This document shows, piece after piece, positions 60,111-64,000 of a stretch of 64,000 bases of DNA. Source of the DNA: Prosthecobacter fusiformis (GTDB taxonomy: Bacteria; Verrucomicrobiota; Verrucomicrobiia; Verrucomicrobiales; Verrucomicrobiaceae); NCBI RefSeq assembly GCF_004364345.1, contig NZ_SOCA01000001.1, forward strand, positions 744,001 through 808,000, in the 5' to 3' direction. The stretch's first letter is position 1. Every line of letters begins with the position of its first letter. Below the pieces are notes generated by a model. The model searched no databases. It was given only the letters and a program-made list of their open reading frames with translations, and was not told where the DNA came from. Made by a program: the position numbers and the translations under genes.

Positions 60111-60222
60111 GGGGAGAAATCAAAAAACATCCCCATGTGGGATCTGGAGAGGCAAGACCTTCATTTTCAATGGTTTAGAATGGGGATGAAAATCCCCATG
60201 TCCTCCCCATCGATCCCCATCC
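60111..60222 (+). repeat. Intergenic hairpin repeat, copy A
   Basis: It begins GGGGAGAAATCAAAAAACAT and has CCCCATGTGGGA as an imperfect first hairpin, then a spacer with TTCATTTTCAA. A perfect 8-base hairpin follows: ATGGGGAT (60180-60187), GAAA, ATCCCCAT (60192-60199). CCCCAT units come after. The loop is of GNRA form. It is about 290 bases from copy B in the same orientation. Confidence 0.75.
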
Positions 60223-60399: not shown

Positions 60400-60508
60400 G
60401 GGGAGAAATGAAAAACATCCCCATTTGGGGATTTGAATCGCAAGGCTTTCATTTTCAATTGGTTAGGATGGGGATGTAAATCCCCACGATTTCCCCATCA
60501 TCCCCATC
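60400..60508 (+). repeat. Intergenic hairpin repeat, copy B
   Basis: It begins GGGGAGAAATGAAAAACATC. The first hairpin, ATCCCC-ATTT-GGGGAT (60417-60432), is perfect. The second is TGGGGAT (60469-60475), GTAA, ATCCCCA (60480-60486), again with a GNRA-type loop. CCCCATCAT units follow. Of the 716-base spacer 60030-60745, copies A and B fill about a third; the rest shows no gene I can support. Confidence 0.75.
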
Positions 60509-60745: not shown

Positions 60746-63700
60746 TTACCATGCTTCCAGCAGATCATTTGCCTCTCTTGCAAGGGTAACATAGCCTTTG
60801 GAAATCGCCTCCCGTTTTACTAGGTTAACGATCTCTTTCGCCTTCTCTGCCTCCCCCTTCGCCGCGAGCACCTTGGCCGAAATCATTTTCGCTTCCCACT
60901 CTCCCTCTGAATCCGCAAGGTCTGCATACATTTTTAGACAGTCATTAGTCTGTTCCTGGCATTCCGTCATATTGCCTTTGGCAAGATGCCATTTGGCCAA
61001 ACCTTGAAGAGCGTTGGCTTCACCAAGAACTTCCTTGATTTCACGATAAATCGATAGCGCGGCGTCGAAGGTGGATCTCGCCTCATCTAACTTCTTTGTT
61101 TGCAACAGCAGGTCCCCCAGCGACTTTAGCGTATTGGCTTCGCCAAGAACTTCCTTGATGTCGCGATAGATCACCATCGCCTTATCGTAGGAAGCGCGTG
61201 CCTCCTTGAACTTACCTGTGCGCAGTAGCAACTCTCCCAGCGACTTGAGAGTGTTGGCTTCGCCCAGCCGGTCCTTGATCTCTCGAAATATGCCTAGCGC
61301 GTCATCGTAGCTATAACGGGCCTCTTCCAGCTTCCCGGTGATTACTTGCAGGTCACCCAGCGATATTAGCGTGTTCGCTTCTCCAAGGCGTTCCTTGACT
61401 TCACGGAAAATCGCCAATGACTCTTCGTAACAATTCAGTGCTTCTTCCAGTTTCTCGGTACGAACAAGCAGTTCACCTAGTGACTGGAGTGAGTAAGCTT
61501 CTCCAACTCGTGCCTTGACTTCACGATATATCCCCATCGCCCTATCGTATCTGGACTGTGCCTCTTCCAGCTTACCCGTCCGCACCAGCAGGTCACCCAG
61601 CGACTTGAGAGTGTTGGCTTCTCCAAGGCGTTCCTTGACCTCACGAAAAATCGCAAGCGCCTCGTTGTAGCTAGACTGTGCTTGCTCCAGTTTGCCGGTC
61701 CGCACAAGAAGGTCTCCCAGTGACCGGAGCGTGCTGGCTTCGCCGTGGCGTTGCTTGACCGCACGAAAAATCGCCAATGCTTCATCGTAGCTAGACCGTG
61801 CTTCCTCCAGTCTCCCGGTGCGAACCAGAAGTTCACCCAGTGACCGGAGCGTATTACCTTCTCCATTGCGTGACTTGACCTTACGGTAGATCTCAAGCGC
61901 CTCATCATAGTTAGTGCGCGCCTCCTCCAACTTATCGGCGAGAACCAGCAACTCACCATGGAAAAATAGGGTGTTTGCAAGACTGGTGGTGGGAGATCCC
62001 TCTCGAGCCGACGCCTCAGCACATCTCAATATCTCCTCTCCTTCCAGGGGCCTACCTAACAATTTCAAAATTTGGGCTTTCTTTACCCAGGCATCCACCA
62101 AGCCTAATTTGTCATGAGATTGCTCAAAGTTTAGCCAGCTATCAACCACAATAAGCGCCTCTTGATACGCATCGGCCATGGTAAGAATCTGGGTCGTGGC
62201 GTTGTAATATTCTGGACGATCTGAAAACCTTTTTACTCCAGCCATCAATAGATCGACAGAGTCTTGACGTAATCCTTGAAGTCTCAACTCCTCTGCCAGA
62301 TTCGTCCAATATGAGGCCCAACCCGTGACTGATGCCGTAATGTTAACCAGCGCCTTCCAATCCAATCCGCGTTGGTGCCTGTTAGGTGCGAGAGCCTGAA
62401 TCCATAACGCGCGCGCCGCTCCCAATACTCCGGCAAGTCCAGGCCAATCGGATTTTTGAACTGAGAAAAGATGTTGTCGTTCCTTCCGAAAAGTTTCCAG
62501 CAGCGCGCTTCGCTCGGATTTCGTCATTCTTGGTAAGCTCAATAGTACACCCCTGAGAATGGTTCCTTCCGAGTTGAAAGCCGGTGTATTCGCCAAATAA
62601 TTCAGAGCGTGACGCAACCATCCAGGGTAGGGTTTGTCTGGCTCAGTTTGAGAAGTGAGCGAGGACAAAATGGCTTTAGCAACCTTCGGCTCCAGCCCTG
62701 CATCCCAGGATAGAGCTTTGGTAAGTGGATGCTCCAACGGAAGCCCGTCCTCCTTCTGTTTACCTGCCTCATCCTGACCGGATAGCTTGAAGCGGAGCGG
62801 CTCGATTTTGCCCCCCAAACGGTCTGCAAGATGGCGGTATTTTTTTGCAGGCTCCGAGTCCTCATGCCTGAGGAGTATGGGATCCTCAAGGAGCGCAAGC
62901 TGTGCATTATACGGAATCTGTATCGGCGTTGGAACCAGGCCAATCTCGCCGAACATTTCTCGCTCCTCAACATCCACATGCCTGCCCAAGGTATCGGCAA
63001 TGGCCCGTGAACGCTTCTCCGTCAATTCAAGTTCTCCCAGAGGCACAGGGCTGACAACAATGGTGATACGCCTCAACCAATCCGCAGTTTCCACTGAACG
63101 CTGAATCTCCAGCAGAGTGGATTCCAATCCCCAGAGATTTTGTTGATTGAGTCCTGTAACCAGGACAATGCGGTCAGAGGACTGGGTGAGAAGCAAATCT
63201 GCAATCCCGGTAATCCCAGTGCGGGCGTCAATAAAAATGGCATCTGGCCGTTCTGCTTCAGGCAAGGTGACAAACTGGGAACGAATCTGCTCGATCACCG
63301 GGTTTTTTCCCCCGTCCTTATGGGTGCGGCGAATCACCTCTGTAAGAGGAGCATCCATCGCATGTACGCGATCAGAATAATGGGTTGTCCCCGAGCAGTC
63401 GTCCTTGAGCAGAGCCGCAGGAACGAGCTTCAAAAAACCTGCCCCCTCCTTAAGCTTGGAGGCAATCACAGGAGAATAAGCGCACGCGGCCAAATTGATG
63501 GGTGGCGGAGGCGGCTCTCCCCGACGAACGGCTTCGTCCAGCAAGACGAGCCATTCGAAGAAATCCAGAACCCCAGGACGAGCAGGGTTAGTCTCATCCT
63601 CTTCTGCCTTCATGCATTCCATGAGGCTGAGGCCTGGGGCGTGAAGATCAAAGTCAATGAGCAGCACATTTTTTCCCCGCTGGGCAAACTCACAGGCGGT

Positions 63701-63763
63701 ATTGAGAAGCGCCTGGGTACGGCCCACCCCGCCCTTGAAGCTGAAAAATGTGATGATCTCCAT
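60746..63763 (-). CDS. KGGVGR-motif P-loop NTPase fused to a TPR array
   Basis: The product is 1005 residues. Residues 1-300 are a ParA/MinD-like NTPase: S-F-K-G-G-V-G-R-T-Q at 8-17, in which the usual P-loop lysine is replaced by Arg15 while the signature Lys10 is kept; then V-L-L-I-D-F-D-L-H-A-P-G-L and A-I-F-I-D-A-R-T-G-I-T. Residues about 300-590 are a helical linker. Residues about 594-953 are nine TPR units of 40 residues (G-E-A-N-T-L-x-S-L-G-D/E-L-L). The C-terminus is helical. NTPases with this motif are known from bacterial NTP-dependent conflict and signalling systems. It begins 19 bases after the stop of another gene on the same strand, so they form an operon. Confidence 0.88.
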   Translation of the reverse strand: MEIITFFSFKGGVGRTQALLNTACEFAQRGKNVLLIDFDLHAPGLSLMECMKAEEDETNPARPGVLDFFEWLVLLDEAVRRGEPPPPPINLAACAYSPVIASKLKEGAGFLKLVPAALLKDDCSGTTHYSDRVHAMDAPLTEVIRRTHKDGGKNPVIEQIRSQFVTLPEAERPDAIFIDARTGITGIADLLLTQSSDRIVLVTGLNQQNLWGLESTLLEIQRSVETADWLRRITIVVSPVPLGELELTEKRSRAIADTLGRHVDVEEREMFGEIGLVPTPIQIPYNAQLALLEDPILLRHEDSEPAKKYRHLADRLGGKIEPLRFKLSGQDEAGKQKEDGLPLEHPLTKALSWDAGLEPKVAKAILSSLTSQTEPDKPYPGWLRHALNYLANTPAFNSEGTILRGVLLSLPRMTKSERSALLETFRKERQHLFSVQKSDWPGLAGVLGAARALWIQALAPNRHQRGLDWKALVNITASVTGWASYWTNLAEELRLQGLRQDSVDLLMAGVKRFSDRPEYYNATTQILTMADAYQEALIVVDSWLNFEQSHDKLGLVDAWVKKAQILKLLGRPLEGEEILRCAEASAREGSPTTSLANTLFFHGELLVLADKLEEARTNYDEALEIYRKVKSRNGEGNTLRSLGELLVRTGRLEEARSSYDEALAIFRAVKQRHGEASTLRSLGDLLVRTGKLEQAQSSYNEALAIFREVKERLGEANTLKSLGDLLVRTGKLEEAQSRYDRAMGIYREVKARVGEAYSLQSLGELLVRTEKLEEALNCYEESLAIFREVKERLGEANTLISLGDLQVITGKLEEARYSYDDALGIFREIKDRLGEANTLKSLGELLLRTGKFKEARASYDKAMVIYRDIKEVLGEANTLKSLGDLLLQTKKLDEARSTFDAALSIYREIKEVLGEANALQGLAKWHLAKGNMTECQEQTNDCLKMYADLADSEGEWEAKMISAKVLAAKGEAEKAKEIVNLVKREAISKGYVTLAREANDLLEAW
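60905..61864 (-). repeat. Eight 120-base tandem repeats inside the TPR region
   Basis: Units begin at 61864, 61744, 61624, 61504, 61384, 61264, 61144 and 61024 and run leftward. Each encodes 40 residues starting G-E-A/G-x-x-L. Adjacent units share long identical stretches, so the array looks recently expanded; the first and last units are the most diverged. Confidence 0.85.
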
Positions 63764-63782
63764 GGGGCAGAATTTATTCCTA

Positions 63783-64000
63783 CTACGCTGCTGCCTTTAG
63801 GCAGTCGAGCAAGTCGGTCGTAACGGATCCGGTTGGGGATTTGTACTTTAAAGGGATCTCTTCATGGGCTTTTTTTGCGGTTTGTGGGAGCCTCTCAGGA
63901 GATTTACAACCAAGAATTGCTTTTCGCTTGGCTTCATTCCTGAACAAGGCGCTCATGCATTCGACAAAATGGTCCCAGGGCAGGCCGCGCTCTTCATGTC
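63783..64000 (-). CDS. 3' end of the gene upstream of the KGGVGR NTPase (cut by window edge)
   Basis: The last 72 codons of a leftward gene are present; the rest lies beyond the window. Its end reads R-G-L-P-W-D-H-F-V-E-C-M-S-A-L-F, then E-R-L-P-Q-T-A-K-K-A-H-E-E-I-P, and finally T-T-D-L-L-D-C-L-K-A-A-A before a TAG at 63783-63785. The other two frames on this strand stop at once near the edge. The NTPase gene starts 19 bases later, so the two are co-transcribed. I cannot assign the family. It could be an effector or sensor partner of the NTPase. Confidence 0.6.
   Translation of the reverse strand, partial: HEERGLPWDHFVECMSALFRNEAKRKAILGCKSPERLPQTAKKAHEEIPLKYKSPTGSVTTDLLDCLKAAA

Follow-up and report, generated by a model that had tools for sequence, protein, structure and literature searches.

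A KGGVGR ATPase with a variable TPR array in Prosthecobacter fusiformis: a three-gene operon and candidate conflict system

The A-B-C operon

At the right-hand end of the window, a stretch of 64,000 nucleotides from Prosthecobacter fusiformis (assembly GCF_004364345.1, contig NZ_SOCA01000001.1, positions 744,001 to 808,000; G000:C1:744001-808000), lies an intact reverse-strand gene, here called C (60746-63763), whose 1005-residue product begins with MEIITFFSFKGGVGRT and joins a KGGVGR-type ATPase to a long array of TPR units. C is the last gene of an operon in the order A-B-C, which is best read as a variant of the KGGVGR-centred conflict systems in which both partner families are new.

The two genes before C lie on the same strand and reach beyond the window, so that their coordinates above 64000 are extrapolated from the adjoining stretch of the contig (L002). 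B occupies positions 63783-64000 of the window and runs on to 64760 (L002 7783-8760), which gives a protein of 325 residues, and A lies wholly outside at 64757-65743 (L002 8757-9743), with 328 residues when counted from the ATG used by most full-length homologues and 350 when counted from the first GTG. The stop codon of A overlaps the start codon of B by 4 bases (ATGA) and B ends 19 bases before C (gap 63764-63782), a spacing which makes co-transcription of the three genes likely. Neither A nor B matched any family in Pfam (E 1), NCBIfam, PADLOC (E 0.1) or PHROGs; A is a conserved protein with no recognised fold, and B is likely to be a helical solenoid of the HEAT/armadillo-like kind. A sequence-only reading of this DNA had described a 1005-residue protein with a K-G-G-V-G-R-T loop starting 19 bases after a gene cut by the window edge, which is accurate, and had proposed the cut gene as the partner, acting as sensor or effector. 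The contig extension bears this out as far as the partner is concerned, since it supplies B with A before it; an effector domain could be recognised in neither.

The ATPase domain of C

The first 217 residues of C (63113-63763, reverse strand) match the NCBIfam family of KGGVGR-motif variant AAA ATPases (NF047398), scoring 112.3 bits where the curated cut-off is 90, and the ParA/MinD-type fold is detected by Pfam at the same end of the protein (AAA_31, CbiA). The PADLOC profile PDC-M28B covers residues 4-243 with an E-value of 6.4e-26, the match being confined to profile positions 131-342 of 438. Among the solved chains nearest to C by sequence are ParA, Soj and MinD proteins (E 4e-4 to 8e-3).

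Conservation of the nucleotide site was judged in an alignment of 44 relatives, made up of 31 database proteins picked with the Arg position left free, one of which (P0027) is the protein of locus L033, and 13 locus proteins picked with R or K allowed; three further loci (L066-L068) were missed by the motif pattern. In the variant P-loop (residues 10-16, 63716-63736, reverse strand) position 15, where the P-loop lysine would stand, holds Arg in 44/44 sequences, and K10, the signature lysine of the ParA type, is kept in 43/44. The earlier statement that the catalytic lysine is Arg needs to be divided: the lysine of the P-loop is replaced, the signature lysine is retained. Identical in all 44 relatives are also D37, D39, A42, P43 and G44 of a switch I-like motif (D-x-D-x-x-A-P-G, residues 37-44, 63632-63655), D179, R181 and G183 of a Walker B/switch II-like motif (D-A-R-T-G, residues 179-183, 63215-63229), both on the reverse strand, and Q208. 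Because its active-site residues are invariant, the nucleotide site looks maintained rather than dead, and the sequences suggest a working site with changed chemistry instead of a relic.

The TPR array

Between the ATPase and the array, residues 331-595 (61979-62773, reverse strand) are moderately conserved, with residues 331-497 only 31-51% identical to orthologues. The array itself consists of eight regular 40-residue units (residues 596-915, 61019-61978, reverse strand) followed by a weaker ninth, so that the earlier count of about nine was fair; it is visible in the DNA as a 120-base tandem repeat and is matched by TPR_12 in seven stretches with 237.8 bits. The C-terminal end (residues 916-1005, 60749-61018, reverse strand) is common to the orthologues P0025 and P0027.

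Comparison with these proteins shows an ATPase that is 71-83% identical while the array differs in the number or type of its units. P0025 is 78% identical over residues 1-250 and has both flanks of the array in common with C, with two units in place of eight; the two proteins differ in length by exactly 240 residues, which equals six units. The array of the L033 protein (P0027) likewise has two units. P0026 has the closest ATPase of the three (83% over residues 1-250), but a different regular 40-residue array, with only 5-21% identity over residues 498-595 and 676-915; outside these two segments the aligned pieces are too short for judgement. Unit number and type change while the ATPase stays, a pattern that would fit a recognition module.

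Distribution and chromosomal site

The operon is rare. B occurs in 1/48 genomes of the genus and in 2/387 genomes of the phylum, namely its own and, as a remnant, G207, which is also the only one of the 273 genomes of its order to carry it; A occurs in the same two among 384 genomes of the class. A pattern scan of genome contigs, with one genome per species, added a single further locus of A (L033, from a metagenome-assembled Verrucomicrobia genome), in which intact A, B (with a 4-base overlap) and C (13 bases on) stand in the same order. The linkage of the three genes is thus repeated, and wherever an intact A-B pair can be read (2/2 loci) C follows it. Protein clusters from metagenomic contigs hold 14 further members of A, eight of B and three of C, the A and C of L033 among them. 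In the G207 remnant (L036 9921-10603) the last 30 residues of A are followed by a B broken off after about 163 residues; no C was seen beside it before the contig ends shortly afterwards.

Defence genes are found within about 7 kb of two of the three A-B loci. The remnant lies about 2 kb from BrxC/PglY, PglZ and BrxD genes of a BREX system, with small open reading frames between, and in L033 a type I methyltransferase gene (PADLOC) and a specificity gene (named by eye) are found about 7 kb or more upstream, again with other genes in between. The window locus has none, judged from gene names given by eye.

The site of the operon varies among related genomes. The large gene nearest past C is sulfatase-like (named by eye) and about 0.6 kb away. 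The operon is flanked by sulfatase and Gfo/Idh genes, and in the sister genome G018 only about 0.5 kb separates these two; the same interval holds other genes in G244, G034 and G019, by eye a ketosynthase-like cluster or sulfatases, and in G005 the alignment extends over the Gfo/Idh side only. At the G244 site (L073 12005-14991, corresponding to window 60110-66878) the insert is a cluster of ketosynthase-like and acyl-carrier-like genes, named by eye. The interval bounded by the sulfatase and Gfo/Idh genes thus looks like a site of gene exchange. The GC content at third codon positions is 0.55-0.59 in A, B and C and 0.61-0.79 in four flanking genes (thrC left out), and the simplest reading is a sporadic gain of the operon at a variable spot.

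Both flanks of the operon also carry repeats. Between C and the sulfatase-like gene are two 89-base repeats that are 80% alike (window 60123-60211 and 60411-60499). Beyond the window, on the upstream side of A, two copies of a 76-base repeat that are 95% alike lie 170 bases apart (L002 10446-10521 and 10616-10691); this interspersed repeat has 24 matches in the genome. Two copies on contig C11 and three on C13 are likewise spaced by about 180 bases, an arrangement suggestive of a paired REP-like element.

Partner genes of related ATPases

KGGVGR matches above the cut-off were found eight times in 7/56 relatives and eight times in 8/387 genomes of the phylum; the window's own gene is counted in both sets, which leaves 15 distinct loci, and the surroundings of all 15 were examined with a simple open reading frame caller. 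In 12 of them the ATPase gene has a tight partner gene on the same strand, either overlapping or within about 20 bases. Apart from B at the window locus, the partner sets comprise a gene pair X-Y (three loci, L042-L044), a PDC-M28-like layout (three loci, of which PADLOC confirms L067, with L066 and L068 assigned from position and length alone), an MqsA-family gene (L069 and L070), a TIR gene (L039), an AAA_35-WD40 protein gene (L072) and two unnamed genes (L071). Recognised as effector, toxin-antitoxin or candidate-defence partners are TIR (one locus), MqsA (two) and the PDC-M28 set confirmed by PADLOC (one).

The X-Y-KGGVGR operons (L042 8343-11715, L043 3650-7170, L044 8035-11637) encode homologous X proteins at 29-32% identity and Y proteins at 26-34%. 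X carries the motifs ATPFDSG and HE-x-P-x-x-E, invariant in the three loci; no Pfam family was found above cut-off for X or Y, and no PHROGs family in L043, the locus scanned. In L069 (5802-8473) and L070 (3311-5927) a gene for a 123-residue protein, which in L069 has no Pfam match, stands in tandem with an MqsA-family antitoxin gene and the KGGVGR ATPase gene; the arrangement resembles a toxin-antitoxin pair to which an ATPase has been added. In L071 (3928-7858) two overlapping genes for proteins of 286-287 residues, with no Pfam match, precede the ATPase gene and are possibly a further partner set.

Plasmids extend this picture. Seventeen plasmid records match the N-terminal part of C, and in nine of them the neighbours were examined: an MqsA-family gene is annotated in two (L048 and L051, one of them below the Pfam cut-off), a HEPN gene is found in two, just above the Pfam cut-off, and BREX-2 pglX, hsdR, type III res or HipA is annotated within 4 kb of the ATPase gene in 4/9. 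The sequence-only reading had described KGGVGR ATPases as often standing next to peptidase, TIR or other effector genes. Part of this is borne out by the existence of a curated family and by TIR, MqsA (L069, L070, L048, L051) and the HEPN-like plus ATPase set of PDC-M28; a caspase-like or trypsin-like peptidase was found in none of the adjoining genes, to which the Pfam scan was limited.

A tree of 32 KGGVGR domains, taken from 13 loci, nine plasmid genes and 10 of the 31 database proteins (L066-L068 were dropped), places C in one clade with L033, P0025 and P0026 (support 100/100). A wider group (100/98) takes in L044, whose partners are X-Y, with the other two X-Y loci on a separate branch; the root is arbitrary and several deeper forks are weak. 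Because X-Y partners thus appear on two branches, partner sets may have moved between KGGVGR lineages.

Comparison with known systems

Among the closest known systems is PDC-M28, which consists of a HEPN-like protein (A), a KGGVGR protein (B) and an ATPase (C), and whose name presumably marks a phage defence candidate. Like A-B-C it has a KGGVGR ATPase in a tight three-gene operon. It differs in that the KGGVGR gene is in the middle of the full sets (L067, L055) and last in A-B-C, and in that the product of C continues past the 438-position PDC-M28B profile with a long TPR array. The profiles PDC-M28A and PDC-M28C gave no match in A or B (PADLOC, E 0.1).

A second comparison is offered by the pair of a HEPN gene (MAE_18760 family) and a ParA/Soj-like ATPase gene, proposed in 2013 as a toxin-antitoxin pair (PMC3710099), which likewise joins a ParA-like ATPase to a partner; the portion of that paper available does not state the KGGVGR motif for its ATPases. 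By contrast, A-B-C has two partners that are not HEPN proteins as well as the KGGVGR-TPR architecture, and HEPN was matched neither by A or B (E 1) nor by 15 members of the A family and nine of the B family (E 10). The term undescribed, used of the operon in the sequence-only reading, fits A and B in the libraries searched; KGGVGR-centred systems as such are already catalogued as PDC-M28, and the HEPN plus ParA/Soj pair had been put forward earlier.

The NTP-dependent conflict systems described in 2020 also contain MinD/ParA-like domains and TPRs (PMC7159879, in the sections available). A-B-C differs from what those sections describe in having the MinD/ParA-like domain as a core component; MoxR, vWA and VMAP had no Pfam match in A or B (E 1) and were absent from the best 25 of 28 families for C. 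Neither KGGVGR nor PDC-M28 is mentioned in the literature searched. The accessible portions of PMC8195603, PMC12839542 and PMC13092281 contain neither KGG nor MinD, and among the passages of PMC12839542 listed for "para" none concerns a ParA protein. An explanation of the role of KGGVGR ATPases was not found in the literature searched.

Interpretation of the operon

With a little better than an even chance, A-B-C is a rare intracellular conflict system in which C is predicted to sense a signal of an invader or of infection and to control an effector encoded by a partner gene. This reading draws on the KGGVGR score above its cut-off, the repeated A-B-C order, the invariant nucleotide site, the sporadic occurrence, the variable site, the differing arrays, the defence genes near two of the A-B loci and the partner and defence genes beside related ATPases, and the conflict or signalling class that had been named from the sequence plausibly applies. 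The findings that the sequence-only reading had set as refuting it, homologues in housekeeping or partition loci or a metabolic partner gene, did not turn up: B is no recognised metabolic gene and its linkage recurs, though once only in an intact locus. We infer that C is the sensor, B the adaptor and A the effector. C would bind ATP and dimerise in the ParA-type manner, with the K-to-R change making hydrolysis slow or absent, so that C would persist in one state for long; a protein or peptide would be read by the TPR array, the solenoid of B would join C to A, and A would stay silent until the array meets its ligand.

Several observations weigh against this reading. Only two intact A-B-C operons can be read. 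Judged by eye, the window locus has metabolic-looking neighbours (sulfatase, threonine synthase, Gfo/Idh oxidoreductase) and lies in no evident defence island. Among the 15 KGGVGR loci three have no tight partner (L038, L040, L041), most partner sets, A-B included, have no recognised function, and the neighbour counts cover KGGVGR loci only, with no ordinary ParA genes for comparison. The division of roles is a guess because A and B have no recognisable effector domain. Mobility is deduced only from distribution and site, since no member was found in viral contigs and plasmids hold neither A nor B. Finally, the MinD/ParA-like domains of the 2020 systems are predicted to be inactive in the sections of that paper available (PMC7159879); this would be compatible with a maintained site in C if nucleotide binding without turnover suffices.

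A more specific form of the conflict reading is rather doubtful. It would make A-B-C an immune receptor system and the ParA-fold counterpart of the NOD-like receptors (NLRs), with a long-lived ATP-bound K-to-R switch, an expandable and swappable TPR array that sets recognition, and A as an effector with a new fold delivered through B. C resembles NLRs in having a constant NTPase and a repeat array that changes in unit number and type. Set against the NLRs with repeat arrays of high internal conservation in a fungal survey (PMC4986451, as far as its available part goes), C belongs to a different NTPase superfamily (SIMIBI/ParA-like, not NACHT/NB-ARC). Membership of C in the STAND/NLR class itself was considered and rejected, as NACHT and NB-ARC are absent from the best 25 of 28 Pfam families for C.

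It is unlikely, at perhaps one chance in a handful, that A-B-C instead works like a toxin-antitoxin module, after the model of the HEPN plus ParA/Soj pair, in which A, or A with B, would be a toxin silenced by C and would serve the stability of the locus, not the sensing of invaders. The order of the genes agrees with it, as the partner comes first and the ATPase after it in the HEPN-KGGVGR and MqsA-KGGVGR loci as well, and the 2013 proposal of a HEPN toxin with a ParA/Soj antitoxin (PMC3710099, in its available portion) is a precedent. A and B are large, however, and match no toxin family, and a swappable TPR array of 320 residues fits a sensor better than a plain antitoxin.

Marginally less likely again is a system of signalling or cell biology that plays no part in conflict and might serve localisation, transport or peptide-regulated development, as do TPR proteins of loci for ribosomally synthesised and post-translationally modified peptides (RiPPs). 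The metabolic-looking neighbours of the window locus would suit such a role, and in NCBIfam C scores highest against regulators such as AfsR and HaaT, in their TPR parts. These matches nevertheless cover the TPR region only and are far below the family cut-offs, no radical-SAM or precursor gene is evident by eye among the open reading frames around the operon, and presence in 1/48 genomes of the genus at a variable site speaks against a core role. It is highly improbable that C is a partition ParA, of a chromosome or a plasmid, carrying unusual extensions: the ParA/MinD-type fold and the ParA, Soj and MinD proteins among the nearest solved chains agree with it, but the P-loop lysine is Arg in 44/44 relatives, no ParB or centromere-binding family is matched by A or B, the contig that carries the gene is 1.5 Mb long, and C is above the KGGVGR cut-off and far below those for partition ParA proteins.

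Significance

If the conflict reading is true, the operon would be an immune or self-destruct switch, and two unrecognised parts, protein families outside every library searched, would be added to bacterial defence. That one ATPase type is found with many partner sets (A-B, X-Y, TIR, MqsA, HEPN-like plus ATPase) suggests a shared switch for interchangeable effectors. Similar ATPases with two units, with eight units or with a different array amount to a natural experiment in which the identity of the array may be set against the specificity for a ligand.

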